In this document: piece after piece, positions 1 to 14,016 of the stretch | How positions within the stretch are numbered: position 1 is the stretch's first letter | Layout: every line of letters begins with the position of its first letter | Assembly (NCBI RefSeq): GCF_033097365.1 | Contig: NZ_AP028461.1 | Span: 1,550,001 to 1,614,000 of the forward strand | Length of the DNA stretch: 64,000 bases | Source: Actinoplanes sichuanensis | GTDB taxonomy: Bacteria; Actinomycetota; Actinomycetes; Mycobacteriales; Micromonosporaceae | Reading direction: 5' to 3' | Notes under the pieces: generated by a model | Told to the model about the DNA's origin: nothing | The model's database searches: none | Seen by the model: the letters and a program-made list of their open reading frames with translations, nothing else | Made by a program: the position numbers and the translations under genes

Positions 1-623
1 CCGACCCGGCAGACATCGGCCGAGTGCCAGCCCACCATCGCCTCCGGTTCCCGGGTCACTCCGGGCCGGTCGGCGTCCACCAGCAGCAGCACCGCGCCGG
101 TCAGGCCGTGGCCGGACACCGCACCGTCGAGACGGGCGAGCACCACGAACACACCCGCCCGGGAACCGTTGGCGACATGCCGTTTGACACCGGTCAGCCG
201 GTAGCCGCCGACCCCGTCCGGGGTGGCCACCGTGCTCAGGTGCCGCAGGTCCGAGCCCGCCGCGTCCTCGCTGATCGCCAGGGCCGCGACCGTCGTACCG
301 GCCAGCATGCCCGGCCGGTACGCCGCCCGCTGCTCCGCAGAGCCGAACATCTCCAGATAGGAGGCCGCCATGTAGGCGTGCACCCCGACCGCGGCGCGGA
401 TCCCGGCGTAACCGGTGTTCCCGAGTTCCTCCAGCAGCACCGCGCTGTCCAGGAATCCGGGCCCGGAGTGCGCGAGTGCGAACAGCCCGGCGGCGCCCAT
501 GTCCCGCCAGCCGGTGGTGCTGATGTGCCGTTGCCGTTCCCACTGCTCGGCGTACGGCAGCACGGCCCGGGCCAGCGTCTCCCGGATCCGGGCCCGCACG
601 TCCACGACGGTCGGGGCGCTCAC
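1..623 (-). CDS. Acyl-CoA dehydrogenase-like flavoprotein (3' end beyond window)
   Basis: The frame starts at GTG 623-621, inside a GTGA overlap with the stop of the adenylation gene, and stays open to the window edge (about 207 codons seen). The translation has the N-terminal helical domain (a stretch reading AGLFALAH) and the beta-domain motif AISEDAAGSDL followed by GYRLTGVKRHVANG, typical of acyl-CoA dehydrogenases; the C-terminal domain with the usual catalytic Glu lies outside the window. The family oxidises acyl thioesters with FAD. Beside a carrier protein and a SyrB2-type halogenase, the best precedent is KtzA of kutzneride biosynthesis, which closes a cyclopropane on a gamma-chlorinated aminoacyl carrier. 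Desaturation of the tethered amino acid is the alternative. The family call is firm; the substrate is inferred from context. Confidence 0.88.
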   Translation of the reverse strand, partial: MSAPTVVDVRARIRETLARAVLPYAEQWERQRHISTTGWRDMGAAGLFALAHSGPGFLDSAVLLEELGNTGYAGIRAAVGVHAYMAASYLEMFGSAEQRAAYRPGMLAGTTVAALAISEDAAGSDLRHLSTVATPDGVGGYRLTGVKRHVANGSRAGVFVVLARLDGAVSGHGLTGAVLLLVDADRPGVTREPEAMVGWHSADVCRV

Positions 624-2191
624 CGCGCGTCTGCCGAGGCCGTGGCCAGCAGGGCCCGCCGGTCCACCTTGCCGGTCGCCGACAGCGGCAGCTCGGTACA
701 GAACCGGATCTGACCGGGCACCATGTAGCCGGGCAGCAGACCGCTCAGATAGTCGCGCAACCCGGCCGGTGTGCACCGCGCGTCCTCGGTGACGACGAAC
801 GCGGCCAGTGACTTCTCACCGGCGGCGGTCTCCACCACGGTCACGAAGTTCTGCCGCACGTCACGGTGCCGACCCAGATGGTAGGAGATCTCACCCAGTT
901 CGATCCGATACCCGTTGATCTTCACCTGGTCGTCGACCCGGCCGTGGAACATCAGCACACCGTCGGCGCGCAGTGCGCCCCGGTCGCCGGTCCGGTACAG
1001 GCGTTCGGGCACACCGTCGACGTCGCGGAGCAGGAACCGGTCGCGGTTGAGCTCCGGCGCCGCCAGGTAACCCGGGGACAGTCCGGGCCCGGCGAGCAGG
1101 ATCTCCCCGGCCCGGCCGGGGGCGCACAGTTCGTCACCGTCGACCACGTACACCCGGGTGTTCTGGATGGGCAGGCCGATCGGCAGCGACTCCTCCCCGT
1201 CGGTGAGCGCGTCGACCGGGTAGAACGTCGCGAAGGTCGTGCACTCGGTCGGGCCGTAGACACTGACCAGCCGGCCGGGGCCGTACCGGGCCAGAGCCGC
1301 ACCGATGTGCCGCATCGAGTGCGCCTCCCCGCCGGTGAGGATGGTGCGCACGCTGTCCAGCGTGTCCGGCGCCTCGTCGACGATCGTGTTGAACAGCGCG
1401 GTGGTCAGGAAGACCACCGTCACACCGTGCTCGGTCAGTACCGTGCGCAGCTCCGAGCAGCGCAGATGCTGCGACGGATAGAGCACACAGACACCGCCGT
1501 GCAGCAGCGGCCCCCAGATCTCGAACGTCGCCGCGTCGAACGTGACCGGCGCGGTGTGCAGCACCACCGCCCCGGAGTCCAGGTCGGCGTACCGCGCACC
1601 GAACACCAGACGGGTGATGCCCCGATGCGTGATCGGCACACCTTTGGGCCGGCCGGTCGACCCGGAGGTGAAGTTGACGTAGGCCAGCGTGCCGGGATCG
1701 ACGGTGACATCGGGACCGGAGGCCTCGTCGCCGGGTCGGGTGTCCACCGCGACGACCGTCGCCGCGGGGAACCGGCCGGTCAGCTCCCCGGCCCGGTCGG
1801 TCAACAGCACACCGGCGCCCGCCTGCTCGAACAGGCCGTTGAGCCGCCCGTCCGGCCAGGACGCCTCGAAGGGTACGTAGTGGGCCCCGCACTTGAGGAC
1901 CGCCAGCAGTGCCACGACCAGATCCGTCGACCGCCGCACGCACACCCCGACCGGGTCGCCGGGCCGCGTGCCGTGCGCGGCCAGCCGGGCCGCCACCACG
2001 TCGGCCGCCCGGTCGAGCTCGCGATAGGTCAGGCGCTGCCGCCCGTGTACCACCGCGGTGGCCTCGGGCCCCCGGGCCACCTGCCGGGCGAAGAGCTCCG
2101 GCACACCCTGGTCGGCCGGGTACGGCGTCGCCGTCCGGTTGATCCGCCGGTGTGCCTCGCGCGCCGCGTCGTCGGCCCGCAACCTATCCAT
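620..2191 (-). CDS. Stand-alone NRPS adenylation domain, predicted Ile/Val-type
   Basis: This 523-residue amino-acid-activating enzyme makes an aminoacyl-AMP and loads a carrier protein. Core motifs appear in order: A3 TSGSTGRPKG (175-184), A5 VYGPTE (311-316), A7 YRTGDRG (399-405), A8 GRVDDQVKINGYRIELGE (417-434) and A10 with the catalytic Lys at 508 (LSATGK). Aligning by eye to GrsA-Phe gives pocket residues D219, A220, F223, F261, L285, G287, V311, T319, F320, K508, a code resembling those for branched aliphatic residues, especially Ile. There is no condensation or carrier domain on the chain; the carrier is encoded at 2944-3228. The start overlaps the thioesterase stop by 8 bp and the stop overlaps the dehydrogenase start, so translation is probably coupled. 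Confidence 0.93.
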   Translation of the reverse strand: MDRLRADDAAREAHRRINRTATPYPADQGVPELFARQVARGPEATAVVHGRQRLTYRELDRAADVVAARLAAHGTRPGDPVGVCVRRSTDLVVALLAVLKCGAHYVPFEASWPDGRLNGLFEQAGAGVLLTDRAGELTGRFPAATVVAVDTRPGDEASGPDVTVDPGTLAYVNFTSGSTGRPKGVPITHRGITRLVFGARYADLDSGAVVLHTAPVTFDAATFEIWGPLLHGGVCVLYPSQHLRCSELRTVLTEHGVTVVFLTTALFNTIVDEAPDTLDSVRTILTGGEAHSMRHIGAALARYGPGRLVSVYGPTECTTFATFYPVDALTDGEESLPIGLPIQNTRVYVVDGDELCAPGRAGEILLAGPGLSPGYLAAPELNRDRFLLRDVDGVPERLYRTGDRGALRADGVLMFHGRVDDQVKINGYRIELGEISYHLGRHRDVRQNFVTVVETAAGEKSLAAFVVTEDARCTPAGLRDYLSGLLPGYMVPGQIRFCTELPLSATGKVDRRALLATASADAR

Positions 2192-2939
2192 CGCCGTCCT
2201 CCAGCCGGGTGTTGATGATGTGCACGAGTTCCGGGCCGTGGCTCGTCATGAAGAAATGCCCGCCGGCCAGTTCGGCGACCTCGCCGCGGCAACGGCTGTA
2301 CCGGGGCCAGTGGCGCATCTCCGGGTGGCTGTCGATCGGGTCGTCGCGCCCGTAGACGGCCGTGATCGGGGCCGACACCCCACCGGGATGCCAGTCCTGC
2401 CACATCTCGGCGAGCCGGATCTCGCTGCGGATCGTCGGCAGCAGCATCGCCATCAGCAGGTCGTTGTCGAGCACCTCGGCGGGGCTGCCGCCCATCTCCC
2501 GCAGCGCGGCCCGGAAGTCCTCGTCCGATCGGGTGTGCAGCAACGGCGTCCGCTGCGGAACGTCCGGGCTGCGGCACCCGGCGACGAACAGCCGCCGGGT
2601 ACGGCCCGGGAAGCGGGCCTCGGCCAGGTGGGTCAGCTCGTACGCCAGCCGGCCGCCGAAACTGTGCCCGTAGAAGGCGTGCGGCTCGCCCAGGTACGGC
2701 TCCAGCGCGGCGAACGTGTCGTCCAGCAGCGGCTTCCAGTGCTCGTACAACGGCTCCCGCAGCCGTGCGCCGCGGCCGGGCAACTGGACCGCGAGCAGTT
2801 CCACGTGCGGGGCCAGGTCGTTCGACCAGGCCCGGAACGCCTCGGGGCTGCCCCCGGCGTACGGAATGCAGATCAGCCGTACGCCGGGTGACGTCCGGGG
2901 CCCGCGCAGCCGCAGGACCCACCTGTCCGTGCCGGTCAC
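2184..2939 (-). CDS. Type II thioesterase (alpha/beta hydrolase)
   Basis: The 251-residue protein has the type II thioesterase layout: N-terminal CIPYAGGSPEAF (oxyanion region, 24-35), nucleophile elbow GHSFGG with Ser93, acid DD199-200 and the motif GGHFF with His228. Such enzymes hydrolyse acyl or aminoacyl groups from carrier proteins, either to clear wrong loads or to release a finished building block. It lies 4 bp after the carrier gene and overlaps the adenylation gene. With no multimodular NRPS in view, release of the modified amino acid is as likely as editing; that is inference. Confidence 0.92.
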   Translation of the reverse strand: MTGTDRWVLRLRGPRTSPGVRLICIPYAGGSPEAFRAWSNDLAPHVELLAVQLPGRGARLREPLYEHWKPLLDDTFAALEPYLGEPHAFYGHSFGGRLAYELTHLAEARFPGRTRRLFVAGCRSPDVPQRTPLLHTRSDEDFRAALREMGGSPAEVLDNDLLMAMLLPTIRSEIRLAEMWQDWHPGGVSAPITAVYGRDDPIDSHPEMRHWPRYSRCRGEVAELAGGHFFMTSHGPELVHIINTRLEDGDG

Positions 2940-2943
2940 GCGA

Positions 2944-3228
2944 TCACGCCCGGGGCTCGCCCGGTGTGCCGGTGACTGTCGCGTTGCGGCCGATCGACGC
3001 CGCGATACCCCGCATGCTGCTCTGGGTGAACAGATCGTCGGGCGGCAGCGCGCCGTCGCCGTACCGCTCCTCGACCTTGGCGATCAGTTTGATCGCGGTC
3101 AGTGAGGTGCCGCCGGTCTCGAAGAAGTCGTGTCCGGGTTCGGTGGCCTGCAGGCCGAGATCCCGGCACGTGCCGAGCAGCCATTCCTGGATCGCCGTCA
3201 CGTCCGGCGTGGTCGCCTGGTCGGTCAT
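2944..3228 (-). CDS. Stand-alone peptidyl/acyl carrier protein
   Basis: A 94-residue phosphopantetheine carrier domain. The attachment motif [10 protein letters not shown] is clear, with Ser42 as the residue that would receive the 4'-phosphopantetheine arm. The length fits a free-standing carrier. Its ATG lies in an ATGA overlap with the halogenase stop, and it is followed by the thioesterase. The context indicates that it holds the amino acid loaded by the adenylation protein while the halogenase and dehydrogenase act, as KtzC or SyrB1-type carriers do. Confidence 0.93.
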
Positions 3229-4193
3229 CGCTGCTCCCCGTCCCGCGTCGGGAACCGGAAGCCGTTCACGGTCCGGTCGACGAACCGGTTGTGCTGGTAG
3301 GTGTCGGTGCCGGAGGTCAGCACGTTGCCGAACTTGGCCAGGCTCGCGCCGCCGCCGAACTCCTCCAACGAGTCCGAGTACGGGTAGACCCGTACCGAGG
3401 TCGGCAGGTAACGGCCCGCGAACCCGAGCCGCATCTGGTCGGTGAGGCCGGCATGCGGATGCGACGCGTGCATCAGCGTCGACCAGAAGACGATGAACTG
3501 CCCCTGCCGCATCACCTGCGACACGGCCTTCGACTCGTCCGGCTTCCAGTTCGGGTCCTTCTGCAGCTGGCGGTAGTCGTAGCCGAAGAAGCCGCGACGG
3601 ACGCCGTCCTTCTCCACCTGGTTCACCGAGTCGGCGTCGTAGGTCATCGTCTTCGACTCGTCGTAGTTCATCGTCTTGTGCGAGCCGGGAATGAACTGCA
3701 GGCAGCCCATGTCCTCGGTGGCCGGGGTGAACGCCGTCCACACGGTGATGGTGCCGCCGAAGTCGGCGTCCTCCGGCCAGACGATCTGCGGATGCTTGGA
3801 CCCGGCGACGTTGGAGAAGTTGTCGGCCTGGTGCCAGTCGGTGCCCTCGTCGCCGGGGTACTTCGGAAAGAACTCGGAGCGCCAGCACAGCGTGTCCGGG
3901 CCGAGGATGCTGGACACCCGGTCGACGATCTCCGGCCGGGTGATGTGCTCGGCCAGGAAGTCGACGTCCAGGTGCCGGTCGTAGTTGGCCAGGTTGGTGA
4001 CACCGGAGACAGCCTTGCCGCCGCTGTAGATGGCGGACCTGGTGTCGAGCAGCTTGGGACGCAGCCGCTGCAGGTTGGCCTGCATCTCGTCGGCGTCGTA
4101 CAGGTCGAACGGGCCGATGTAGCCCTGCTCGTGGAACAGCTCCAACTCGGCGCCGGTGAGGGAGAACCGGGTCTGCTGTTGCTGTGTTGTCAC
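3225..4193 (-). CDS. Non-heme Fe(II)/2-oxoglutarate halogenase, SyrB2 type
   Basis: This 322-residue protein belongs to the phytanoyl-CoA dioxygenase fold and, by eye, is close to SyrB2 over its length (shared blocks such as [50 protein letters not shown]). The metal site is diagnostic: His121 and His242 are kept, but the usual Asp/Glu of the HxD motif is Ala123 (HQA). In this family that gap lets chloride bind iron, so the enzyme halogenates rather than hydroxylates. SyrB2-type enzymes act on amino acids tethered to a carrier, which the next gene supplies. The start is GTG 4193 with a purine-rich GAGGCGG upstream. The 95-bp gap before it is the largest within this run, so an internal promoter is possible. 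Chlorination is strongly supported; the site on the substrate is inferred. Confidence 0.94.
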
Positions 4194-4288
4194 GTCGAAA
4201 CCGCCTCATCGTTTGATGTCCGTCAAGAGAACCGAGGGGGAGGGGTACGCCCGGAGGGGCGCGCGATCGTCGCGGGGTCCCGCCGCCG

Positions 4289-5437
4289 TCAGGCATGGCG
4301 CCTCGCGAATTCGCGGTACCGGGCGCCCAGTTCGGCGGCGTGATCGGCGGCTTCGGCGAGTTTCATCGTGCGGCAGTGGTAGCCGAGCATCCGCTGCATG
4401 ACCGCCATCTCCGGCTCGGTGAACGTGACCGTCCCGGTGGTGGCGTCGATGTGCTCGATGCCGTCGGCCCGCAGCCCCGCCTCGTTGACGGTGACCGCCT
4501 GCGCCGGAGTCATCCCGGCCGGGAGGTCCAGTGCGGCGCCGGAACGCTTGACCCGGACCGGATAACCACCGGGCAGGCCGCCGGGCGCGGGGGCGTGCAC
4601 CAGTCGGCCGGTGTCACCGGCGACGGCCGCGAGCACACTCATCGCCGACGAGGCGGTCAGCAACTGCCCCGCCACCCCGCCGAGCCGCTTCAACGGGCCG
4701 GTGAGCATCGCGAACAGCTCGTCGGCGTCGACCTCCACCGGCCGGTCCCCGTCCACGGTCGTCACCGCCAGCCGGTACGTGTCCGGCCGGCCGGTGCCGA
4801 ACCGGGGCACGTAGTGGCTGAAGTAGTGCTGCGCGACCAGCCGGACCCGCAGGTCGGTGACCGGCAGCCCGGTCCGGGCCGAGGCCGCGAAGGTCAGCGC
4901 CGGGACGATGTTGGCGACGTTGCCGATGCCGATGTCGGGTGCCAGGCCGACGGCTTTCAGCACCGGGCCGACCGCGTCCGGGAAGGCCGCGTTCACCGTC
5001 GTCGTGGTGATCCCGGACTCCCGGACCGCCTGCATCAGCAGGTGGTTCAGCGTCAGGTGCATGGGCAGCCAGGGACCCAGCTGCGCCTCGTCGAGTTCGG
5101 CGAAGACGGTCGGGGGCAACTCGGTGATCACCCGCCAGGACTGCAGGGACGCGCCCATGAAGATGATGTCCGGGCGGATCGCCGCCAGTGTCGCGGCGGT
5201 CCGGGAGACGTCGCGCAGGTCCAGCTCGACGGTGTCGGCGCGGGCCGGCACACCCAGATTGGCGGCGGCGAACCGGGCCAGGTTGGCGCGCAGTCGCAGG
5301 GCGGTGGCGTCCCGCCCGGCGAGGATCACGCGGGCGGTGTGTTCGCCGGCCAGCAGCATGGACAGCAGCCGGGCCGACAGGTCGCCGTTGCCGATCACCA
5401 TGATCAGGGGCTGGTCTGCCGGGTTCTGGTCGGTCAC
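4289..5437 (-). CDS. Rossmann-fold dehydrogenase-like protein, function unknown
   Basis: A 382-residue protein with an N-terminal nucleotide-binding signature (VIGNGDLSARLL, then VILAGRD after the second strand), as in saccharopine-dehydrogenase-like and related NAD(P) enzymes. The C-terminal two thirds match no family I can name. It may be an oxidoreductase on an amino-acid-like substrate. It overlaps the cysteine-synthase-like gene by 4 bp, which recalls the SbnA/SbnB pair that makes 2,3-diaminopropionate, but it does not look like SbnB (ornithine cyclodeaminase family). Its role in the cluster is unknown. Confidence 0.7.
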   Translation of the reverse strand: MTDQNPADQPLIMVIGNGDLSARLLSMLLAGEHTARVILAGRDATALRLRANLARFAAANLGVPARADTVELDLRDVSRTAATLAAIRPDIIFMGASLQSWRVITELPPTVFAELDEAQLGPWLPMHLTLNHLLMQAVRESGITTTTVNAAFPDAVGPVLKAVGLAPDIGIGNVANIVPALTFAASARTGLPVTDLRVRLVAQHYFSHYVPRFGTGRPDTYRLAVTTVDGDRPVEVDADELFAMLTGPLKRLGGVAGQLLTASSAMSVLAAVAGDTGRLVHAPAPGGLPGGYPVRVKRSGAALDLPAGMTPAQAVTVNEAGLRADGIEHIDATTGTVTFTEPEMAVMQRMLGYHCRTMKLAEAADHAAELGARYREFARRHA

Positions 5438-6399
5438 GGGTTCTGCCTTCCGGGTCGGGGGGTCTCCGGCCCGGTGGGCGCGAAGATGTCGTGCAGGTGA
5501 CGGTCACCGCGGTCGGGCAGCACGGCGGCCACCCGGACCGGGCGGGTGAGCAGCGGCAGGATCCGGTCCAGGGCGGCGACCACGGCACCGGACGCCGGGC
5601 CGGCCAGGATCGCCTCCGCCTGCAGCAGTCGTCGACAACCGTCGACCGTCTGCGCCTCGGTGACGTGGACGACCCGATCGATCCCGGCCGGTTCCAGCAG
5701 CTCCGGCCGCGGACCGCCGCCGGCCGTACGCCACCGGTTGGTGCCCGGCGGCCCGCCGAACACCGTCGAGCCGACCATGTCCACCGCCACCACCGACAGC
5801 GCCGGGAACTCGGCTCGCAGGCGGCGGGCCGAGCCGGTCAGTGTGCCCCCGGTGCGTACCGCCGCGACCAGGACGTCGAGCCGGTCGCCGACCGCGTCGG
5901 CGATCTCCCGGGCGGTGGTACGGAAGTGGGCGTCCGCGGTGAGCGCGTTCCCGGTCTGGTTGATCCACCGGCTGTGCGGATCGGCGCGCAGGATCTCCTG
6001 GACCCGTTCGATCCGGCGCCGCGCGTTCCCGGCCGGGTCGTCGTCACCCGGGACCGTGTCCACGGTGGCGCCGAGCAGCCGCATCACCGCCACGTCGGCG
6101 GGCGGCACGGTCGTGTCCACCACGGCGGTCAGCCGCAGCCCGCAGATTCGGGCCACCATCGCGATGCCGACGCCCGCGTCCCCGCCGACGCTCTCCACCA
6201 GGCGGGTGTCGGCGGTGAACAGCCCGTCGCGCAGGCCCTGCTCGATGATGTGCCGTGCGGCCCGGTCACTGCCGTCGCCGCTCGGGTTGAGGGCCTCCAG
6301 TTTGGCGATCACCTCGACACCGGGTTCCGGGAACAGCCGGGCGAGCCGCACCAGAGGTGTGCCGCCGACACAGTCGACGACCGAATCGCGGATCATCAC
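5434..6399 (-). CDS. Cysteine-synthase-family protein lacking the PLP lysine
   Basis: This 321-residue protein has the fold-type II PLP layout of cysteine synthase/SbnA enzymes: an N-terminal VGGTPLVRL, the glycine loop RTGGTLTG that normally holds the PLP phosphate, GPASGA near the C-terminus and the SbnA-like ending LPDRGDRHLHDIF. The segment that normally reads NPxGSVKDR reads NPSGDGSDR (38-46), so the Schiff-base lysine position is Ser44. The substrate-binding SGNTG loop is also altered (GGDAG, 72-76). The reading frame is clean, so this looks like a diverged protein and not a sequencing artefact. It could be a pseudoenzyme partner, or bind a ligand without PLP chemistry. Confidence 0.85.
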   Translation of the reverse strand: MMIRDSVVDCVGGTPLVRLARLFPEPGVEVIAKLEALNPSGDGSDRAARHIIEQGLRDGLFTADTRLVESVGGDAGVGIAMVARICGLRLTAVVDTTVPPADVAVMRLLGATVDTVPGDDDPAGNARRRIERVQEILRADPHSRWINQTGNALTADAHFRTTAREIADAVGDRLDVLVAAVRTGGTLTGSARRLRAEFPALSVVAVDMVGSTVFGGPPGTNRWRTAGGGPRPELLEPAGIDRVVHVTEAQTVDGCRRLLQAEAILAGPASGAVVAALDRILPLLTRPVRVAAVLPDRGDRHLHDIFAPTGPETPRPGRQNP

Positions 6400-6409
6400 A
6401 GGTCCTCTC

Positions 6410-7225
6410 TCACCGCTGCCGGCCCACGGTCAGCGGCAGCCGGGCGCCGGAGCCGGTACCGGTCAACGCCGCGAGATCACCGAGACTCAGGTACGGCCGG
6501 GCGGGGGACCAGCACCGGCCGCCGATCACCACCTCGGGCGGGCGGCCGGGATCACCCAGACCGGTCACCACCAGGGCCGCCTCGTCGAAGTCGTCGTGGA
6601 ACGTCAACCGGGTCGGGGTGACCACACACGTCATCCCGGCGGCCACCGCGGCACGCATGCCGTTGCGGGTGTCCTCGACCACGACACAGTCCGCGGGGTT
6701 CGCGCCCATCCGGCGTGCCGCCAGGTGGTACACCTCCGGTGCCGGCTTCTTGGCGCTGACGTCCTCGCCCGTCGTCACCGACATCGCGGCGGTCAGATCG
6801 GGGCCGACGGCACACCGCAGCACGGTCAGCACCGACGCGCGGGCGCCGGCCGACGCCACCCCCACCCGCCACCCGGCGGCCAGCGCCGTGGTGGCCAGCC
6901 GCCGCACCCCGGAGCGTGCCGTCACACCGGTCCGCACCAGATCGGCGTAGATCTCCGTCTTACGGGCATGCCACCGGGCCACCGTGGCGGCCCACACCCG
7001 CGGGTCGGCCGGCGTCTCGTACACCGCCCGGAACGCGGGATCGTCGCGTAGCGCGGCCAGCCGCTCGCGGCCACCGGAGATGGCCAGCGCCCGGGCGTAC
7101 TGCTGATCGCTCCACTGCCAGCCGATGCCCTGCTCACGCCACATCTGGTTGAACGCCCGCCGGTGCCGGCCGAGTTCCAGGTCGACCACCACGCCGTCGC
7201 AGTCGAAGATCAGCGCACGGGTCAT
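6410..7225 (-). CDS. HAD-superfamily phosphatase/phosphomutase-like hydrolase
   Basis: The 271-residue protein starts with motif I FDCDGVVVD (nucleophile Asp8, acid Asp10) and carries motif II in VGVASAG, motif III Lys in SAKKPAPEVY and motif IV VVEDT, the CbbY/phosphoglycolate-phosphatase pattern with a helical cap. It likely removes phosphate from a small metabolite. The start overlaps the aldolase stop by 4 bp. Together with the aldolase it suggests a phosphorylated carbohydrate-like precursor; the substrate is not readable from sequence. The last 40 residues are an unusual extension. Confidence 0.88.
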   Translation of the reverse strand: MTRALIFDCDGVVVDLELGRHRRAFNQMWREQGIGWQWSDQQYARALAISGGRERLAALRDDPAFRAVYETPADPRVWAATVARWHARKTEIYADLVRTGVTARSGVRRLATTALAAGWRVGVASAGARASVLTVLRCAVGPDLTAAMSVTTGEDVSAKKPAPEVYHLAARRMGANPADCVVVEDTRNGMRAAVAAGMTCVVTPTRLTFHDDFDEAALVVTGLGDPGRPPEVVIGGRCWSPARPYLSLGDLAALTGTGSGARLPLTVGRQR

Positions 7226-8055
7226 GTCTGCCTCCCCCGACTGCCCGACCGACGGATGTAGGTGTCACAGACCGCGCCGACCCGGGCCCGCAGGGCCCGC
7301 GGCAGGTCCAGCGGCTCCTCGGCCGACCCGGCGAGGTCCCGGACCGTCGCCAGATACTCGGTCTTCACCGCCGACGAGAAATTGATCTTCGAGACGCCGG
7401 CGGCCACCGTCGCCGCGAGTGCCGCCGCGGACAGCCCGCTGCCGCCGTGCAGCACCACCGGCACCGTGCCGGCCAGCCGGCGCGCCAGGTCCAGTCGGAT
7501 CGGCGGATCCGCGTCGTAGTGGCCGTGCCGGGTGCCCAGATCCGGGCTGAGGCACAGCACACCGGTCGCGGCCACGAACTCCCGGCTCCGGTCGTACGAC
7601 GCCGCCGCGACGACCGGTGTGGTCTCGCCGATCCGCGCGATCCGCTCGAATTCGCCCTCGATCTCCGCGCCGTGTCCGGCGGCTTCCGCGACCACCCGTC
7701 GGGTGTCCGCCACCGCCTCCGCGAACGGCCGGTCCGACACGTCGAACAGCGCCGACTCCCAGCCCGCCCGCACACAGTCGAGGACCTGGTCGGCATCCGT
7801 GCAGTGATCCAGATGCAGCACCGCGGCCACTCCCGACGCGGCCCGGCGGGCCTCGAAGGCGGCTCGCAGCGGCGCCGCGCCCCAGAACGCGGCGGTACGG
7901 GCGGAGGTCTGCACCACCACCGGGGACCCGGCCGAGGCCGCAGTGTCCAGCACCGCCGCCATCGTCGCCTCGTCCACCACGTTGAACGCCGGTACCGCGT
8001 ACCCCTCCGCCCGGGCCCGCCGCAGCAGCGACCCCAGGGTGTGCCGCGCGGTCAT
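7222..8055 (-). CDS. Class II (zinc) aldolase, fructose-bisphosphate/tagatose type
   Basis: A 277-residue class II aldolase. Key motifs are VPAFNV near the N-terminus, LHLDHC (Asp83 as general acid/base, His84 as zinc ligand), GTRHGHY (second His ligand region), LHGGSG (third His and phosphate loop) and KINFSSAVK. Such enzymes condense or split a ketose phosphate such as dihydroxyacetone phosphate with an aldehyde. ATG 8055 is chosen because it forms an ATGA overlap with the exporter stop; a longer frame exists, but its extra residues are arginine-rich and unlike the family. Within the operon it may supply a C-C bond in the product backbone. Confidence 0.9.
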   Translation of the reverse strand: MTARHTLGSLLRRARAEGYAVPAFNVVDEATMAAVLDTAASAGSPVVVQTSARTAAFWGAAPLRAAFEARRAASGVAAVLHLDHCTDADQVLDCVRAGWESALFDVSDRPFAEAVADTRRVVAEAAGHGAEIEGEFERIARIGETTPVVAAASYDRSREFVAATGVLCLSPDLGTRHGHYDADPPIRLDLARRLAGTVPVVLHGGSGLSAAALAATVAAGVSKINFSSAVKTEYLATVRDLAGSAEEPLDLPRALRARVGAVCDTYIRRSGSRGRQT

Positions 8056-8972
8056 CGGCCCGACCCCTGCGGCAGCGACACGACCACGGCCGGTTCCGGA
8101 TCGGCTGGGCGCGGCATCCGGGCGTACCCGACGGCGATCACGGTGATCACCACGGTCAGCGCCAGGGCCCACGGGTCGAACGGGGCGCCGAACGCCACCT
8201 GCGCCAGATAGGTCAGGCCGGGCATCGTCGTGATCAGCGTCATCGCACCCAGCGAGTCGGCCCGTTGCAGACCGACCTGCAGCAGGTACAGCGGCACCAC
8301 CACGGCGACCAGGCCGACCAGCACCAGCAGCGGCAGTCGGGTACGGACCTCGGCGACCGCCGGTGGGTCCAGCGCCAGCAGCACCAGCGCCGCCAGATAG
8401 GTCAGATGGAACCGGTTGGCGGTCACCGTCACCGGCGGCACCGCCAGCCGACCCAGTCGCTTCGACAGCAGCGCCAGCCCGGCCGCACCCAGCCCGGCCA
8501 GCAATGCCAGTCCGACACCGGTGACCAGCCGGCCCATCGGTACGGCGCCGGCCGCGTCACCGGACAACCGCAGCGCCAGAGCGCCGGAGCAGCCGATCAG
8601 CACCCAGCCGACCAGATGGTCACCGATCCGTGCGGCCCGCCCGGCGGCGATGGCGATCACCAGCGGTCCGATCGCCGTCTCGATCGACACGGCGAGGGCG
8701 GCCGGTACGTACACCAGGCTCAGGTAGAAGCTGATGAACGTGACGGCGGTCAGGACGTTCGCCGTCACCATCAGCCGGCCGTGCGCCCGCAGCACGCCCC
8801 GGCCGGGGCCCCGACGGACCCGGTCGATCACCGTGAAGACCACCGTGGCCAGAGCGAACGCGATGGTCGAGAAGAGCAGGCTCTGCGCGCCGTCCAGCCG
8901 GCCGGACAGGAATCCGCTGCTGCCCGCCTGCAGCAGCACCGCCACGCCGATGAGGGCCAGTGGGGCGTTCAC
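8052..8972 (-). CDS. EamA/DMT-family transporter
   Basis: A 306-residue, very hydrophobic protein with about ten membrane helices in two EamA-like halves (for example FISFYLSLVYVPAALAVSIE in the first). GTG 8972 lies in a GTGA overlap with the ATP-grasp stop. DMT-family proteins often export amino acids or small metabolites. Inside this biosynthetic operon the likely job is export of, and self-protection from, the finished compound. No DNA-binding or soluble domain is fused. Confidence 0.88.
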   Translation of the reverse strand: MNAPLALIGVAVLLQAGSSGFLSGRLDGAQSLLFSTIAFALATVVFTVIDRVRRGPGRGVLRAHGRLMVTANVLTAVTFISFYLSLVYVPAALAVSIETAIGPLVIAIAAGRAARIGDHLVGWVLIGCSGALALRLSGDAAGAVPMGRLVTGVGLALLAGLGAAGLALLSKRLGRLAVPPVTVTANRFHLTYLAALVLLALDPPAVAEVRTRLPLLVLVGLVAVVVPLYLLQVGLQRADSLGAMTLITTMPGLTYLAQVAFGAPFDPWALALTVVITVIAVGYARMPRPADPEPAVVVSLPQGSGR

Positions 8973-10198
8973 CGGCTCACCGGTTCCAGCTCGTAGAACT
9001 GCCCGGCGTCCTCCAGCTCGTGCAGGACCCGTAGCGCGTTCTCGATCGTCGCCGGATCCTCGTGCACGAAGAACGCGATGCCGGAGGCGCCGGTGGTCAG
9101 CAGCCGGTCCGGAACCGGGTCGCCGATCCCGGCCAGCCGCGCCACACTGTGGAACCCGGGCAGGCGTCGCAGCAGGTCCAGCCCCGGCGCCGCCCGGATC
9201 ACGCCGTCCCGGTGCGCCCGCAGGAACACCTTCGCCACATGCCGGTCCGGGCCGTAGCCGGCCGCGTCGCGCAGCGCGAACGCGGCCGGATCCAGCATGC
9301 TCTCCACGACCAGATGCTGGTGGGAGTAGCCGAACGCGGCGAAGTAGGCGTCCGGTGCCAGGCAGGGGCCCATCACCCGCGCGTTCACCTCGACCAGGCA
9401 CGGCCCGTCCGGTGTACGGCGTACCTCGGTGTGCGCGGCGCCCTCGGACACCCCCAGCGCGTCGAGGCAGTCGAAGACGTAACCGACCAGCTCCTTGTCC
9501 GGCCCGTCCAACGTCCGCGCCGAGATCATGTGCCGGAACACCGGTGCCCCGCCGACCTGCCGGTCGATGTGCGCCGCGTACAGCTCGCCGAGCGTGTGCC
9601 GGCCGCCGACGCTGACGGTGTTGACGATGAACTGCGGACCGTCCAGGTACTCCTGGACCAGGACCGCGTCGTTGGTACGGCCCATCAGGTTGCGCTCGTG
9701 AATGACCTGACCGAACGCCGCCCGTGCCTGTTCCGGATCGGCGCACACCCGGCAGCCGTCACTGCCGGCGCTGTCTCGGGGCTTGACCACCAGTGGGAAC
9801 GGGAAGTCGGCCAGCACCTGGTCGAGCTCCGTCGCGGTTCGTACGACCGCGGTCCGGGTGGCTCGTAAACCCCGCTCCCGTAGCCGCTCCATCATCAGCG
9901 CCTTGTCCCGGCGCGCCGCCGACAGCGCGTAGTCGTTACCGGGCAGCTCCAGCAGGCGGGCCAGCTCGTCGGCCGGTCGCACCCCGAACTCGCTGGCCGC
10001 GACCACGGCCGACACACCCAGCGCGCGCAGCTGCCGAGCGGCCACGGCGACGTCGGTATAGGAGATCACCCGGACACCCGTCGGGCACGGCCCGACCGGT
10101 ACGCCGGGTCCGTACACGTGGACGCACGCGGCACCCCGCTCGTGGAAGGCGCGGGCCAGCTCGGCGCCGCTGGACACAGGATTGACGAGGGCGATCAC
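8969..10198 (-). CDS. ATP-grasp ligase (amino acid/carboxylate-amine ligase)
   Basis: A 409-residue ATP-grasp enzyme. The central domain has the ATP-binding PLVVKPRDSAGSDGCRV segment, the hinge VLVQEYLDG and the metal site PCLVEVNARVMG. The N-terminal domain is Rossmann-like and the C-terminal part resembles the lid region of BacD/DdaF-type L-amino acid ligases. These enzymes activate a carboxylate as acyl-phosphate and couple it to an amine, usually making dipeptides. Here it probably joins the halogenated or cyclopropyl amino acid to a partner. It overlaps both neighbours by 4 bp. Substrates are not predictable by eye. Confidence 0.9.
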   Translation of the reverse strand: MIALVNPVSSGAELARAFHERGAACVHVYGPGVPVGPCPTGVRVISYTDVAVAARQLRALGVSAVVAASEFGVRPADELARLLELPGNDYALSAARRDKALMMERLRERGLRATRTAVVRTATELDQVLADFPFPLVVKPRDSAGSDGCRVCADPEQARAAFGQVIHERNLMGRTNDAVLVQEYLDGPQFIVNTVSVGGRHTLGELYAAHIDRQVGGAPVFRHMISARTLDGPDKELVGYVFDCLDALGVSEGAAHTEVRRTPDGPCLVEVNARVMGPCLAPDAYFAAFGYSHQHLVVESMLDPAAFALRDAAGYGPDRHVAKVFLRAHRDGVIRAAPGLDLLRRLPGFHSVARLAGIGDPVPDRLLTTGASGIAFFVHEDPATIENALRVLHELEDAGQFYELEPVSR

Positions 10199-11676
10199 AC
10201 CGAAGCTCCGACCTGGTCGAGGAAGTTGACGAAAACCGTGCCCGCCTGACCGGCGGCGGCATGCAGATAGTTCGTGATCGGGCTGCGGGCGTGCGTCGAC
10301 GGGCCGACCAGCCAGATGCGCTCCCGCGCCGGTGGGCGGATCACCACCCGCAGGTCCGCCGCCGGCCGCAGCGGTCCGGCGGCCGGTGTCCCGTCCAGGT
10401 GCAGGGCATCACCGTCCACGTGCACCGTCCGCTTGTGGTTGCCGGCCGCCGCCACCACCGTGTCGAACCGCCGGGACGTGTCCTCCCAGGTCGCCGTCCA
10501 CCCGCCGGTCGCGGTCGGTTCGACGGCGACCGGGTACGTGCGGACCACCAGCCGGCCCGCGTCGATCGCGTCCAGCAGGCGGCGGGCACTGCCCAGGGGG
10601 ATCGCCGACACGTACCGGCCGATCAGCGACCGGTGCCGTTTCATGAACGCCGACGCCCGGGCCGGGCCGGCCTGCGGCAGCCACTCGTTCAGCCCGTCGA
10701 TGACGCCGGCCACCACGTCCTGCCACGGCGTGTCGTCGGCCTCGGCCAGAGCCGTCTCCCGGCGCAGCCGCTCGTGCGGATCACCGGCCCGGACGATCTG
10801 CCGGCGCAGCGCCAGCGGTCTGACCCGCCGGATCGCCCGCACCAGCAGGTGCGCCGCCTCGCGATCCATCGCCGGATCCGGAAGGTCACCGGCGAGTCGA
10901 CCCAGTTCCTGCGCCAGCCAGGCCGCCGGCTCGGTCCGGGCCAGACGGGTCCGGACCGCCGGCAGCTCACCGGAGGGCGAGCTGATCACCACCCGCCGGC
11001 CGGAGTCGATCAGCAGCAGCGCCGTCTCGATCGCCGACAGCCGGCTGCCCAGCACCAGGACGTCACCGCCCGGCTGCACCTGGCGCAGCATCGACGCCGC
11101 GGGATACGGGGTGGGCACGAACGCCGGATGCCCCACATACGGGGTCATCAGCATCGGCACGATCGGCTCGCCCAGGCCGACGCAGACCAGCACCTCCGAA
11201 GCGGGCAGCACGCCACCGGAGGCGAGGTGGACCAGATAACCGCCGTCGGGGCCGACCGCGACCCGCAACACCCGGTCCCGCACGTGCCGGGTGGTGATAC
11301 CGCGGGCCTGGGCCATCCGGCGGTGTTCCAGGAAACGAGTCCGCGCATACTGGGCCGCCTGGAAGCGCGGCACGAACGCGGACCGGTGCTGCGGCCAGCC
11401 CCGGCCGCGCAGATAGTCACAGAGGTCGTCGGGCCGGTCCGGCAACAGCGAGGTGTCACCGGCGGGCGTGTTGCACAGGGCGTGCACGTGCGCCGAACCG
11501 AAGGCCGGTCCGAAACCCGGCTCATGCGGGTCGATCAGCGTGACACCGCGGACGACGCCGTGCCGGACCAGCTGGAGGTAGGCGCTCACACCGGTCATCC
11601 CGCAGCCGATGATCACCACCTGCTCGCCCGGCGTGGTCGATGACAGTCTCACTGGCCGCTGCTCCCGTGTCGTCAT
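10195..11676 (-). CDS. FAD/NAD(P)-binding oxidoreductase, first gene of the operon
   Basis: A 493-residue protein with a dinucleotide-binding GCGMTG near the N-terminus (VVIIGCGMTGVSAYL), followed by LIDPHEPGFGPAFG, as in the FAD_NAD_binding_9 group, and a second nucleotide region (VLVLGSRLSAIETALLL). It is probably a flavin-dependent monooxygenase or dehydrogenase on an amino acid or a carrier-bound intermediate. Start ATG 11676 sits inside a palindromic octamer. The stop overlaps the ligase start (ATGA), and nothing on the same strand lies closer than 170 bp upstream, so transcription of the cluster probably begins here. The reaction is unknown. Confidence 0.82.
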   Translation of the reverse strand: MTTREQRPVRLSSTTPGEQVVIIGCGMTGVSAYLQLVRHGVVRGVTLIDPHEPGFGPAFGSAHVHALCNTPAGDTSLLPDRPDDLCDYLRGRGWPQHRSAFVPRFQAAQYARTRFLEHRRMAQARGITTRHVRDRVLRVAVGPDGGYLVHLASGGVLPASEVLVCVGLGEPIVPMLMTPYVGHPAFVPTPYPAASMLRQVQPGGDVLVLGSRLSAIETALLLIDSGRRVVISSPSGELPAVRTRLARTEPAAWLAQELGRLAGDLPDPAMDREAAHLLVRAIRRVRPLALRRQIVRAGDPHERLRRETALAEADDTPWQDVVAGVIDGLNEWLPQAGPARASAFMKRHRSLIGRYVSAIPLGSARRLLDAIDAGRLVVRTYPVAVEPTATGGWTATWEDTSRRFDTVVAAAGNHKRTVHVDGDALHLDGTPAAGPLRPAADLRVVIRPPARERIWLVGPSTHARSPITNYLHAAAGQAGTVFVNFLDQVGASV

Positions 11677-11717
11677 GACGGCGCGGCGCCGATCGGCGCC
11701 GCCGTTGCTGTCATGAC
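11672..11717. promoter_or_regulatory. Palindrome set at the head of the halogenase operon
   Basis: A perfect 20-bp palindrome, GCGGCGCCGATCGGCGCCGC (11683-11702), is flanked by two copies of the palindromic octamer GTCATGAC (11672-11679 and 11710-11717, 38 bp apart). The first octamer contains the ATG of the oxidoreductase gene. The layout suits an operator for a dimeric or tetrameric regulator, or an mRNA hairpin over the translation start. No regulator gene lies within the visible cluster. Confidence 0.5.
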
Positions 11718-11846
11718 TCTGGCGGGGCCCGTCCTCACGGCATCCTCGCGATGTCCTCGGCTGTGGCGCGCGGCCGGTGAGCGCGCGGTCACCCCGCTCC
11801 CGACCAGGTCTGATCCGGCGCCGGCCGGTCCGTCGCGGCGGTGTGG

Positions 11847-12698
11847 TCAGGCGATCAGGGCGGTTGGCACCTCCAGGTCGGCGGTCCGGTAGAGGGCGGC
11901 CGTCCCGGCCGGTTCGTCGGCGGCGCACGTGGCGGCGACGGTGTCGAGAAGGGCGTCGTAGTCGGCGCCGGTGTGGCCCTGATAGGACGCCTCCATCCGG
12001 CCCCACTCGTCCCACGGCAGGGTCTCGACCCGGTTGAGCGCGGCCAGGTCGCGGATGGCGTTGCCGCGGATCTCGCCGGGACCGAAGTTCTCGGTGCCCC
12101 ACACGCCGAACCTCGCCGGGTCGAGGCGGCCGGCCCGGAACTCCGCCCACGCTTCGCCGCCGGTCAGGAACTGGCCGGGGACCAGGGCCTCCGGGGTGGG
12201 CAGCACGGTGAGGCCCATCGCCTCCGGGTCGGCGCGGACCCATGACCGCCCGTCGGTGGAGAACTCGATCACCCAGTGGTCCAGGCCCAGGCCGGGCTGG
12301 AAGTAGGTGGCGAAGCCGCAGCGGGCGCGGGCCGCGATGCCGCGGTGGCGGAGCAGGGCGCAGGCCAGGACGGCGAAGTGGCGGCAGGTGCCGATCACCC
12401 GGCGCTCCGGCGGCCGGGGCACGGTCAGCGGGGACGGATCGAGGTCGAGAAGCGTCCGGACCAGGCGGGCGGCGGGGCGGATCTGATTCTCGTCGAAACG
12501 ACCCGGTGGCAGCTCCAGCCGGCCGGCGTCATGGGGCTGGATGACCAGCCGGTGCACGAGCCGGGAGATGGCGATCGGATCCTCGGGGAGGTCGGCGAGC
12601 GCGCCGCGCCCGACCGACGAGAGGTCGGTGAGTGGACCACCTGCCGCGTAATCGATCGTCGTCGTCATGTCCCGCATCGTAGGCGCGGGGTCCGACAC
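11847..12698 (-). CDS. Transglutaminase-like (papain-fold) protein
   Basis: Up to 283 residues with the transglutaminase-core order: Cys in VIGTCRHFAVLACALLR, His in GLGLDHWVIEF and a likely Asp in VRADPEAMG. Bacterial members are usually amidases or peptidases, less often cross-linking enzymes. The start is uncertain: GTG 12698, ATG 12677 or ATG 12668 are in frame and none has a strong ribosome site. It lies 170 bp upstream of the halogenase operon on the same strand. Membership of that pathway is possible, but the spacing and the palindromes argue for a separate unit. Confidence 0.8.
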   Translation of the reverse strand: MSDPAPTMRDMTTTIDYAAGGPLTDLSSVGRGALADLPEDPIAISRLVHRLVIQPHDAGRLELPPGRFDENQIRPAARLVRTLLDLDPSPLTVPRPPERRVIGTCRHFAVLACALLRHRGIAARARCGFATYFQPGLGLDHWVIEFSTDGRSWVRADPEAMGLTVLPTPEALVPGQFLTGGEAWAEFRAGRLDPARFGVWGTENFGPGEIRGNAIRDLAALNRVETLPWDEWGRMEASYQGHTGADYDALLDTVAATCAADEPAGTAALYRTADLEVPTALIA

Positions 12699-12730
12699 TT
12701 CCCGGCCCGTCCGAGAGCCGGCCGATGAAG

Positions 12731-12995: not shown

Positions 12996-13865
12996 CTACC
13001 GGGTCGTCGCGTCCGTCGGTGAGTAGCCGAGAATGTCCAGAAGATTCCCGGTCGCGTTCCGGAAGGCCTGGTCGATGTCGTCGTCGAAGTGGTTGCGCCA
13101 GTCGCCGGACTTGCCCTTGCGGTAGTGCGAGATCCCGCCCGCCTTCTTGCGCTCGTTCATTCGCGAGAAGCTGTACTTCTCCAGCAGGGCGGTGAGTTCC
13201 TCGGGGGGCAGGACGATTCCGCAATGGCGCATCAGCGCGTCCATCTCGGCCGCCTGGTCCTCGCCGGTCAGGTCCTCGTAGCGGACCAGCCTGATCGTTT
13301 CCGACGGCGGCGCCTCGACCCACGAGCGGACCGCGTTGAACATGCCTTTCCGGGTCAGGTTCTCGATCAGATAGAGCATTCCGTCCTTCTGCGACCGCTC
13401 CCGCAGGGCGGCTCGGACGGCCAGCACGTCACCCATCGGCGTGTGTGAGTCGCGGGTCGAGAAGTAACTGGAGACGAGCAGGTCACGAGGATCGCGGTAG
13501 ATGAAGAAGGTGCGGTGCTCCGCGGGTTTCGGCATCTTGCTGTAACGCTTGTACGGGAAATACAGCGAGAGCCCGATCCGCTGCGGTGGGCAGACCCGTG
13601 GGTCCTTCCAGCCGTAGTACCGGGGGTCGTAGGTGACCAGCCCGGAACGGCGATAGACGATCGGGTCGCTGAACACCGACTTCACCCACTGGCTGGCCGT
13701 CTTGCGGACCGCGCAGTGGTAGATGTTGACGAATGGGCTGCGGTCCTCGACCGGCACGGTGATCCGCAGTTTCGCGTTGTGCGCCTCGAGCAGGGCGCGT
13801 CGCCCGAGCACCCGCACGGAATCGGGCGTGTGCTGTTTTGCGAACATCACGGTGCGATTGAGCAT
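12996..13865 (-). CDS. Sulfotransferase-family protein
   Basis: A 289-residue protein with sulfotransferase features: a 5'-phosphosulfate-binding-like segment (VRKTASQWVKSVF), the 3'-phosphate motif FIYRDPRDLLVSSYFS and a C-terminal RKGKSGDWRNHF that matches the GxxGxW element. It would transfer sulfate from PAPS to an unknown acceptor. ATG 13865 is preferred (GAGGA upstream); an in-frame GTG at 13937 has no ribosome site. It appears to stand alone, with the mini-gene 163 bp downstream. Confidence 0.85.
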   Translation of the reverse strand: MLNRTVMFAKQHTPDSVRVLGRRALLEAHNAKLRITVPVEDRSPFVNIYHCAVRKTASQWVKSVFSDPIVYRRSGLVTYDPRYYGWKDPRVCPPQRIGLSLYFPYKRYSKMPKPAEHRTFFIYRDPRDLLVSSYFSTRDSHTPMGDVLAVRAALRERSQKDGMLYLIENLTRKGMFNAVRSWVEAPPSETIRLVRYEDLTGEDQAAEMDALMRHCGIVLPPEELTALLEKYSFSRMNERKKAGGISHYRKGKSGDWRNHFDDDIDQAFRNATGNLLDILGYSPTDATTR

Positions 13866-14016
13866 CGTCAAAGTCCAATTCCTCGCCAGGCGGAACGGCA
13901 CGCCGACGTCGCACACGCCGTCGTGCGTTGGGGGCACTTTACAAGAACATTGACATCGTTACGAGAGTGTCTCGTCTCGGCCACAACCTCGAGGCTGTGA
14001 AAAGGCTTGGAGGAGC

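Follow-up and report, generated by a model that had tools for sequence, protein, structure and literature searches.

Does a halogenase gene set of Actinoplanes sichuanensis serve a pathway to a cyclopropyl amino acid that stands outside any large peptide assembly line? The question is raised by the left end of a 64,000-nucleotide stretch of DNA (the window; genome positions 1550001-1614000 on the single 12.14 Mb contig NZ_AP028461.1), for which a preliminary description made from the letters alone had claimed a KtzA-D-like set with a SyrB2-type halogenase. Considering the results of the present analysis, it is likely that the locus is a SARP-controlled cluster making a cyclopropyl amino acid, probably joined into a dipeptide, and chlorination of isoleucine followed by cyclopropane closure appears to be the best reading of its core genes. 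These are listed below in positions of the window, negative positions lying to its left.

3225..4193, minus strand: predicted SyrB2/KtzD-type non-haem Fe(II)/2-oxoglutarate halogenase, 322 amino acids (aa), with His121, Ala123, and His242
2944..3228, minus strand: stand-alone carrier protein, 94 aa, PF00550, with the phosphopantetheine Ser in GGTSL
2184..2939, minus strand: type II thioesterase, 251 aa, PF00975, with GHSFGG and the Asp and His motifs present
620..2191, minus strand: stand-alone adenylation protein, 523 aa, PF00501, with the code DAFFLGVTF
623 down to -492, minus strand (genome 1549508-1550623; 1..623 in the window, the edge of which cuts the gene): KtzA-type acyl-CoA-dehydrogenase-fold flavoprotein, 371 aa

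The halogenase scored 433.7 bits against the NCBIfam 'chlorinating enzyme' model TIGR01762, the cut-off of which is 226.3, and its best solved relatives, aligned over nearly the whole length, were SyrB2 (2fct, 443.7 bits) and CytC3 (3gja, 408 bits). It belongs to the PhyH Pfam family. The coordinates and the three residues given in the preliminary description were confirmed, and the carboxylate iron ligand that it had named as a ground for rejection gives way, by alignment, to Ala at the ligand position. A scan with six peptide patterns taken from the query gave 55 related loci, which do not amount to a census. His121 and Ala123 were conserved at every one of them (55 of 55) and His242 at all but one (54 of 55), namely L057, in which the reading frame is truncated. 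The product of 3225-4193 is, as judged by these residues and by family score, a predicted SyrB2-type carrier-dependent Fe/2-oxoglutarate chlorinase. A maximum-likelihood tree was built from 57 rows, comprising 54 loci (L057 was omitted as truncated) together with the query, SyrB2, and CytC3. In it, the query fell in a clade of 47 rows (support 100/99) outside which both SyrB2 and CytC3 were placed. This clade comprised all 40 flavoprotein-linked rows and seven without a flavoprotein. Linkage to the flavoprotein was clustered on the tree, with three changes and none of 500 shuffles as low, a clustering partly due to near-copies and accompanied by a long-branch warning from the program. From the protein search, 120 of 2243 halogenase matches were listed; halogenases closer than that of Kutzneria exist, with up to 84% identity outside Actinoplanes. 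Three halogenase relatives (P0059, P0060, and P0078) are named 'chemotaxis protein CheX' in databases, probably wrongly, and CheX-named hits are mentioned among SyrB2 and CytC3 homologues in a passage of PMC4859513. At L057 itself (10001-10594, Actinomadura sp. DC4), an apparently truncated or frameshifted halogenase lies beside a full-length adenylation match.

The carrier, type II thioesterase, stand-alone adenylation protein, and acyl-CoA dehydrogenase said to be co-encoded with the halogenase were all borne out by Pfam matches. The phosphopantetheine Ser of the carrier was kept in 47 of 47 rows. The nine variable positions of the adenylation protein, numbered on what we take to be the appropriate stretch of GrsA, read DAFFLGVTF, which we assume to mean isoleucine; the code is accordingly only predicted to be of the isoleucine type. 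It recurred in 33 of the 38 relatives having both adenylation and flavoprotein genes, the remaining five showing DAFFLGMTF (Kutzneria), DAFFLGITF (two), DAFFLGATF (one), and a gapped code (one). The seven clade members without a flavoprotein carried DAFFLGVVF (five) or DIWLTGLCI (L043 and L044), and the clade is thus not uniform in code. The proposed likeness to KtzA-D held at the level of sequence kinship, since four full-length homologues occur in the same order in Kutzneria sp. 744 (L041), with identities of 72% for the halogenase, 56% for the carrier, 60% for the adenylation protein, and 64% for the flavoprotein. The flavoprotein gene begins with a GTG that overlaps the stop of the adenylation gene. 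In a best-hit test applied to the flavoprotein only, the Kutzneria protein found the cluster gene first in the A. sichuanensis genome with 470 bits, the second of 20 matches reaching 149 bits. Glu237, corresponding to the catalytic base of LCAD/IVD type, was kept in 40 of 40 flavoprotein rows; it was located by aligning the flavoprotein with 8w0t and 8w0z, two human LCAD sequences distinguished by Glu/Gln at this site.

The limits of 1-4193 given in the preliminary description proved too narrow, for they hold the core only, and the unit runs from about -7400 to 12707. This insert of approximately 20.1 kb was delimited by the Actinoplanes genome G028, which lacks the cluster and has the flanks joined: its DNA follows that of the host as far as -7400 and resumes the match at 12707, and in the intervening stretch of about 0.8 kb a TetR-like frame was seen by eye. 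Two other genomes fetched, G024 and G026, showed the right-side match only. The cluster was probably acquired horizontally, although the single empty site fits loss in G028 as well as insertion in the host lineage. Halogenases of more than 90% identity occurred in two of 67 genomes of the genus, the same two that contain gene 37, and relatives at 41-63% in six more. Among named organisms, Actinoplanes xinjiangensis (L008) has the locus most closely related to this one, and there the run is conserved at 83-96% with ratios of nonsynonymous to synonymous substitution (dN/dS) of 0.14-0.40, the sole stop among the hits falling at the second-last aligned residue of the HAD gene. Because its genes all lie in one direction on the minus strand, are tightly spaced or overlapping, and are conserved in this manner, the run is not a product of chance. 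A sulfotransferase gene (K46, 12996-13937) was rejected as a member, its DNA being present also at the empty site, just outside the insert. Extension to the left, which had been suggested earlier, completed the flavoprotein and brought into view a convergent BenE-family transporter gene, a SARP regulator gene, a CPA2-type antiporter gene, and a sucrase/ferredoxin-like gene, with a lipid-degradation operon absent. The other features are as follows.

1..12707, no strand: in-window portion of the insert, from the empty site in Actinoplanes genome G028 (L110)
4289..5437, minus strand: gene 37, 382 aa, malate/lactate dehydrogenase fold in an AlphaFold model
5434..6399, minus strand: gene 38, SbnA-like protein of the pyridoxal phosphate (PLP) fold, 321 aa, with Ser for the PLP lysine and the TSGN loop replaced
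6410..7225, minus strand: HAD phosphatase (beta-phosphoglucomutase-like), 271 aa, by domain and family models
7222..8055, minus strand: class II fructose-bisphosphate-aldolase-like enzyme, 277 aa, by domain and family models
8052..8972, minus strand: EamA-family transporter, start inferred
8969..10198, minus strand: ATP-grasp L-amino acid ligase-like protein, 409 aa, PF13535, with a match to 30vh
10195..11685, minus strand: FAD/NAD(P)-binding oxidoreductase, PF13454, start not settled
11847..12698, minus strand: transglutaminase-like protein, 283 aa, at the right edge of the insert

The ligase-like protein matched the solved L-amino acid ligase 30vh with 156 bits over query residues 3-402 and exceeded the cut-off of PF13535. 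The earlier statement that no modular nonribosomal peptide synthetase (NRPS) is visible holds for the surroundings as well, the nearest of 17 condensation-domain matches in the genome lying about 3 Mb away, and a peptide, if made from cluster genes alone, would thus be made by the ligase. A small peptide had been one of several products considered in the preliminary description, and the gene at 8969-10198 favours that option. In Streptomyces natalensis (L018) and sp. NBRC 110611 (L012), the series halogenase-carrier-thioesterase-adenylation-flavoprotein is followed by an FAD protein (42-43% identity), a ligase (57%), and an EamA transporter (39-42%; missed in a second search with the BLAST low-complexity filter on), indicating that ligase and cassette travel together in these two Streptomyces and that the larger set recurs outside the family of the host. 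Genes 37 and 38 and the HAD and aldolase genes were not found within the fetched stretch of either locus. On L052, a contig of a metagenome-assembled genome, a halogenase (58%) faces ligase-like (33%) and gene 38-like (29%) genes on the opposite strand, possibly forming another ligase-type cluster.

We propose the following scenario, inferring in it each chemical step, the dipeptide, transport, and regulation, and what genes 37 and 38 do. The adenylation protein would load L-isoleucine onto the stand-alone carrier, and the halogenase would place chlorine on the gamma carbon of the carrier-bound isoleucine. Glu237 of the KtzA-type flavoprotein may then take the alpha proton, with chloride expelled and the ring closed to give an allocoronamoyl-type thioester, from which the thioesterase would release the product. 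The ATP-grasp ligase may couple the freed amino acid to a second one, a dipeptide being the likely product, and the EamA, BenE, and CPA2 transporters may move it. The aldolase, the HAD phosphatase, gene 37, and the lysine-less gene 38 may supply or alter the partner.

The relatives offer a view of how such a cassette is accompanied elsewhere. In the fetched flanks of 39 named flavoprotein-linked relatives (at most 10 kb on each side, and less for some), where counts are not independent because four Pseudomonas and two Pseudoalteromonas rows are near-copies, a PF04073 trans-editing relative was present in 17 of the 39 and within the cassette in 12. None was found at 16 halogenase loci without a flavoprotein or at 17 gene-37 loci. 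The editing protein of L012 has as its closest solved relative TTHA1699, a putative trans-editing enzyme, followed by others including YbaK, and scored 60.3 against the NCBIfam YbaK model, below the cut-off of 153.25. Examples of such YbaK-like genes lie at L012:13585-14058 and L021:13552-14025. AzlC-AzlD, of the branched-chain amino acid exporter family, is encoded at L012 and L018, and a LysE-type gene in the four Pseudomonas loci; a CPA2 antiporter gene occurred in 15 of the 39 relatives, compared with four of 16 and none of 17 in the two control sets. Read most simply, the link to editing genes suggests a free amino acid capable of being charged on tRNA and of poisoning translation. Near the host cluster there is no tRNA-editing gene, none of the five matches in the genome lying within 4 Mb, and a dedicated editing gene was therefore rejected for the host; the idea of self-protection thus rests on the relatives.

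Several observations weigh against the proposed pathway to a dipeptide. The cluster has no known product, and genes 37 and 38, the HAD gene, and the aldolase gene have no assigned role. The ligase falls short of the cut-off in each of the NCBIfam models listed (for PRK07206, 253.8 against 302), and it was found in the flanks of just three of the 39 relatives, A. xinjiangensis included, so that the cassette does not need a ligase in general. The code of L043 and L044 implies that membership in the halogenase clade alone does not fix the substrate, and proteins of the acyl-CoA-dehydrogenase fold can also dehydrogenate, the residues examined, including Glu237, fitting both reactions. The absence of the ligase from the flanks of 36 of the 39 relatives, together with the amino acid exporters (AzlCD at the Streptomyces loci L012 and L018, and LysE at the four Pseudomonas loci) and the tRNA-editing genes in 17 of 39, would suit a free cyclopropyl or chlorinated amino acid made by the same first steps, with the ligase and its neighbours making some other product or only masking it. 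We regard this as rather unlikely, as the ligase here belongs to the same co-directional run and the same insert, and two Streptomyces carry the cassette together with the ligase-FAD-EamA set.

Retention of the chlorine, with the flavoprotein oxidizing or silent and the product holding gamma-chloro-isoleucine or a chloro-alkene, is less probable still. Part of PMC8407142 lists chlorinated products for the SyrB2 and CytC3 pathways, but the halogenase groups with the Kutzneria enzyme and apart from SyrB2 and CytC3, which disfavours a chlorine-keeping route like theirs, and the Kutzneria flavoprotein has its best match in that of the cluster. An operon for the degradation of lipids or branched-chain acids, into which a halogenase-like oxygenase had strayed, would account for the acyl-CoA dehydrogenase fold and for membership in the PhyH family; it is contradicted by the left flank, Ala123, the TIGR01762 score, and the carrier and adenylation partners, and we give it hardly any credence, the left flank and the halogenase active site having ruled out lipid degradation.

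Gene 37 showed no Pfam, NCBIfam, or PDB sequence match, and its malate/lactate dehydrogenase fold was seen in the AlphaFold model. Its family holds at least 672 proteins. Across 394 genomes of the class, with at most four candidates per genome scored, the host's own copy was the only one, and 18 were found in 392 genomes of one class-mate genus. In 17 of these 18 neighbourhoods that were fetched, an HAD gene was present in 14 (four of 17 with the host HAD as the only query, 14 of 17 in a later search), a transaldolase-like gene in eight, and a class II aldolase gene in one. For gene 38, SbnA is the nearest solved structure both by sequence (240 bits) and by fold, the model (mean pLDDT 88.6) superposing on four SbnA entries with TM scores of 0.83-0.89, whereas the score against the SbnA family model TIGR03945 was 274.4, below the cut-off of 349.95. 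SbnA is the diaminopropionate-precursor synthase of staphyloferrin B; gene 38 has its fold in common with it, but the PLP lysine and the TSGN loop are absent here. The lysine is replaced by Ser in gene 38 and by Thr in A. xinjiangensis, P0242, and P0243, while it was kept in 118 of the 120 homologues listed, P0242 and P0243 being the other two; the substrate loop reads VGGD or VCGD in gene 38 and the lysine-less homologues. A working diaminopropionate synthase was rejected on the loss of this lysine in all four proteins. Decay is likewise disfavoured, as gene 38 has no stop and a dN/dS of 0.20 against A. xinjiangensis, its neighbours giving 0.14-0.40. Selection has apparently preserved gene 38, a protein of the PLP fold that has lost the lysine, without the usual chemistry, possibly as a structural partner or as an enzyme that does not use PLP in the usual way, and it is the least explained part of the cluster.

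If these strands are joined, a broader picture can be offered tentatively: a free-standing, widely transferred pathway to a cyclopropyl isoleucine analogue that would poison translation once charged on tRNA, with protection by a dedicated trans-editing deacylase and by exporters in many carriers and by dipeptide masking in Actinoplanes. There the partner would come from a new submodule made up of an aldolase, an HAD enzyme, an enzyme of malate dehydrogenase fold that belongs to no known class, and a protein of the SbnA fold working without the PLP lysine. We hold this joint picture to be possible, though doubtful as a whole. Kindred sets extend from Actinoplanes to Pseudomonas, and a second adenylation domain was not found in the fetched flanks of 33 of the 39 relatives, which makes a free amino acid or dipeptide a testable product class, and the link to tRNA-editing genes offers a testable mode of action and self-protection. 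Known cryptic chlorination with cyclopropanation mostly supplies a building block to an assembly line, according to a portion of PMC8407142.

Among known systems, KtzA-KtzD of Kutzneria sp. 744 agree with the present core in the direction and order of the four genes, and their code, DAFFLGMTF, differs at one position from DAFFLGVTF here. The names KtzA-C for the Kutzneria loci are our assumption. Large frames with adenylation matches lie on both sides of the Kutzneria genes, and no thioesterase lies within their run; here, in contrast, the thioesterase is within the run, no NRPS is near, and the cluster also has genes for an L-amino acid ligase, an aldolase, and an HAD phosphatase, besides genes 37 and 38. 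In the CytC1-4/armentomycin set, a stand-alone adenylation protein, a carrier, a halogenase, and a thioesterase yield an amino acid without an assembly line, and a flavoprotein is not known to take part. That set differs in that CytC3 lies outside the halogenase clade of the query and, presumably, in its substrate. CmaC, which closes the ring in the coronamic acid (Cma) system of Pseudomonas syringae, is not known to be related to KtzA. The ligase resembles L-amino acid ligases (PDB 30vh, BacD, and DdaF) in its ATP-grasp likeness over nearly the whole length, although it lies far below the cut-off of the dapdiamide synthase DdaF model NF041595 (154.3 against 840). As far as the consulted parts of the sources go, Kutzneria sp. 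744 is the kutzneride organism (PMC11705231), KtzD chlorinates thioesterified L-Ile and so prepares the closure of the cyclopropyl ring found in allocoronamic acid (PMC12615548), and cryptic chlorination followed by cyclopropane closure is known from few pathways, such as those of coronatine, kutzneride, and curacin (PMC8407142, which also names CytC3 and armentomycin). A Pseudomonas coronamic acid cluster without coronatine polyketide or ligase genes is described in part of PMC8719888, so that free coronamic-type clusters are not wholly new. Among titles and the beginnings of abstracts, which included few subscription papers and give a weak negative, there was no stand-alone KtzA-like cluster, no ligase-plus-halogenase cluster, no gene-37 submodule, and no tRNA editing as self-protection. 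The chemistry is known from kutzneride; what appears to be new at this locus is a KtzA-D set that stands apart from any large peptide assembly line and is linked instead with an L-amino acid ligase and a submodule still in want of an explanation.

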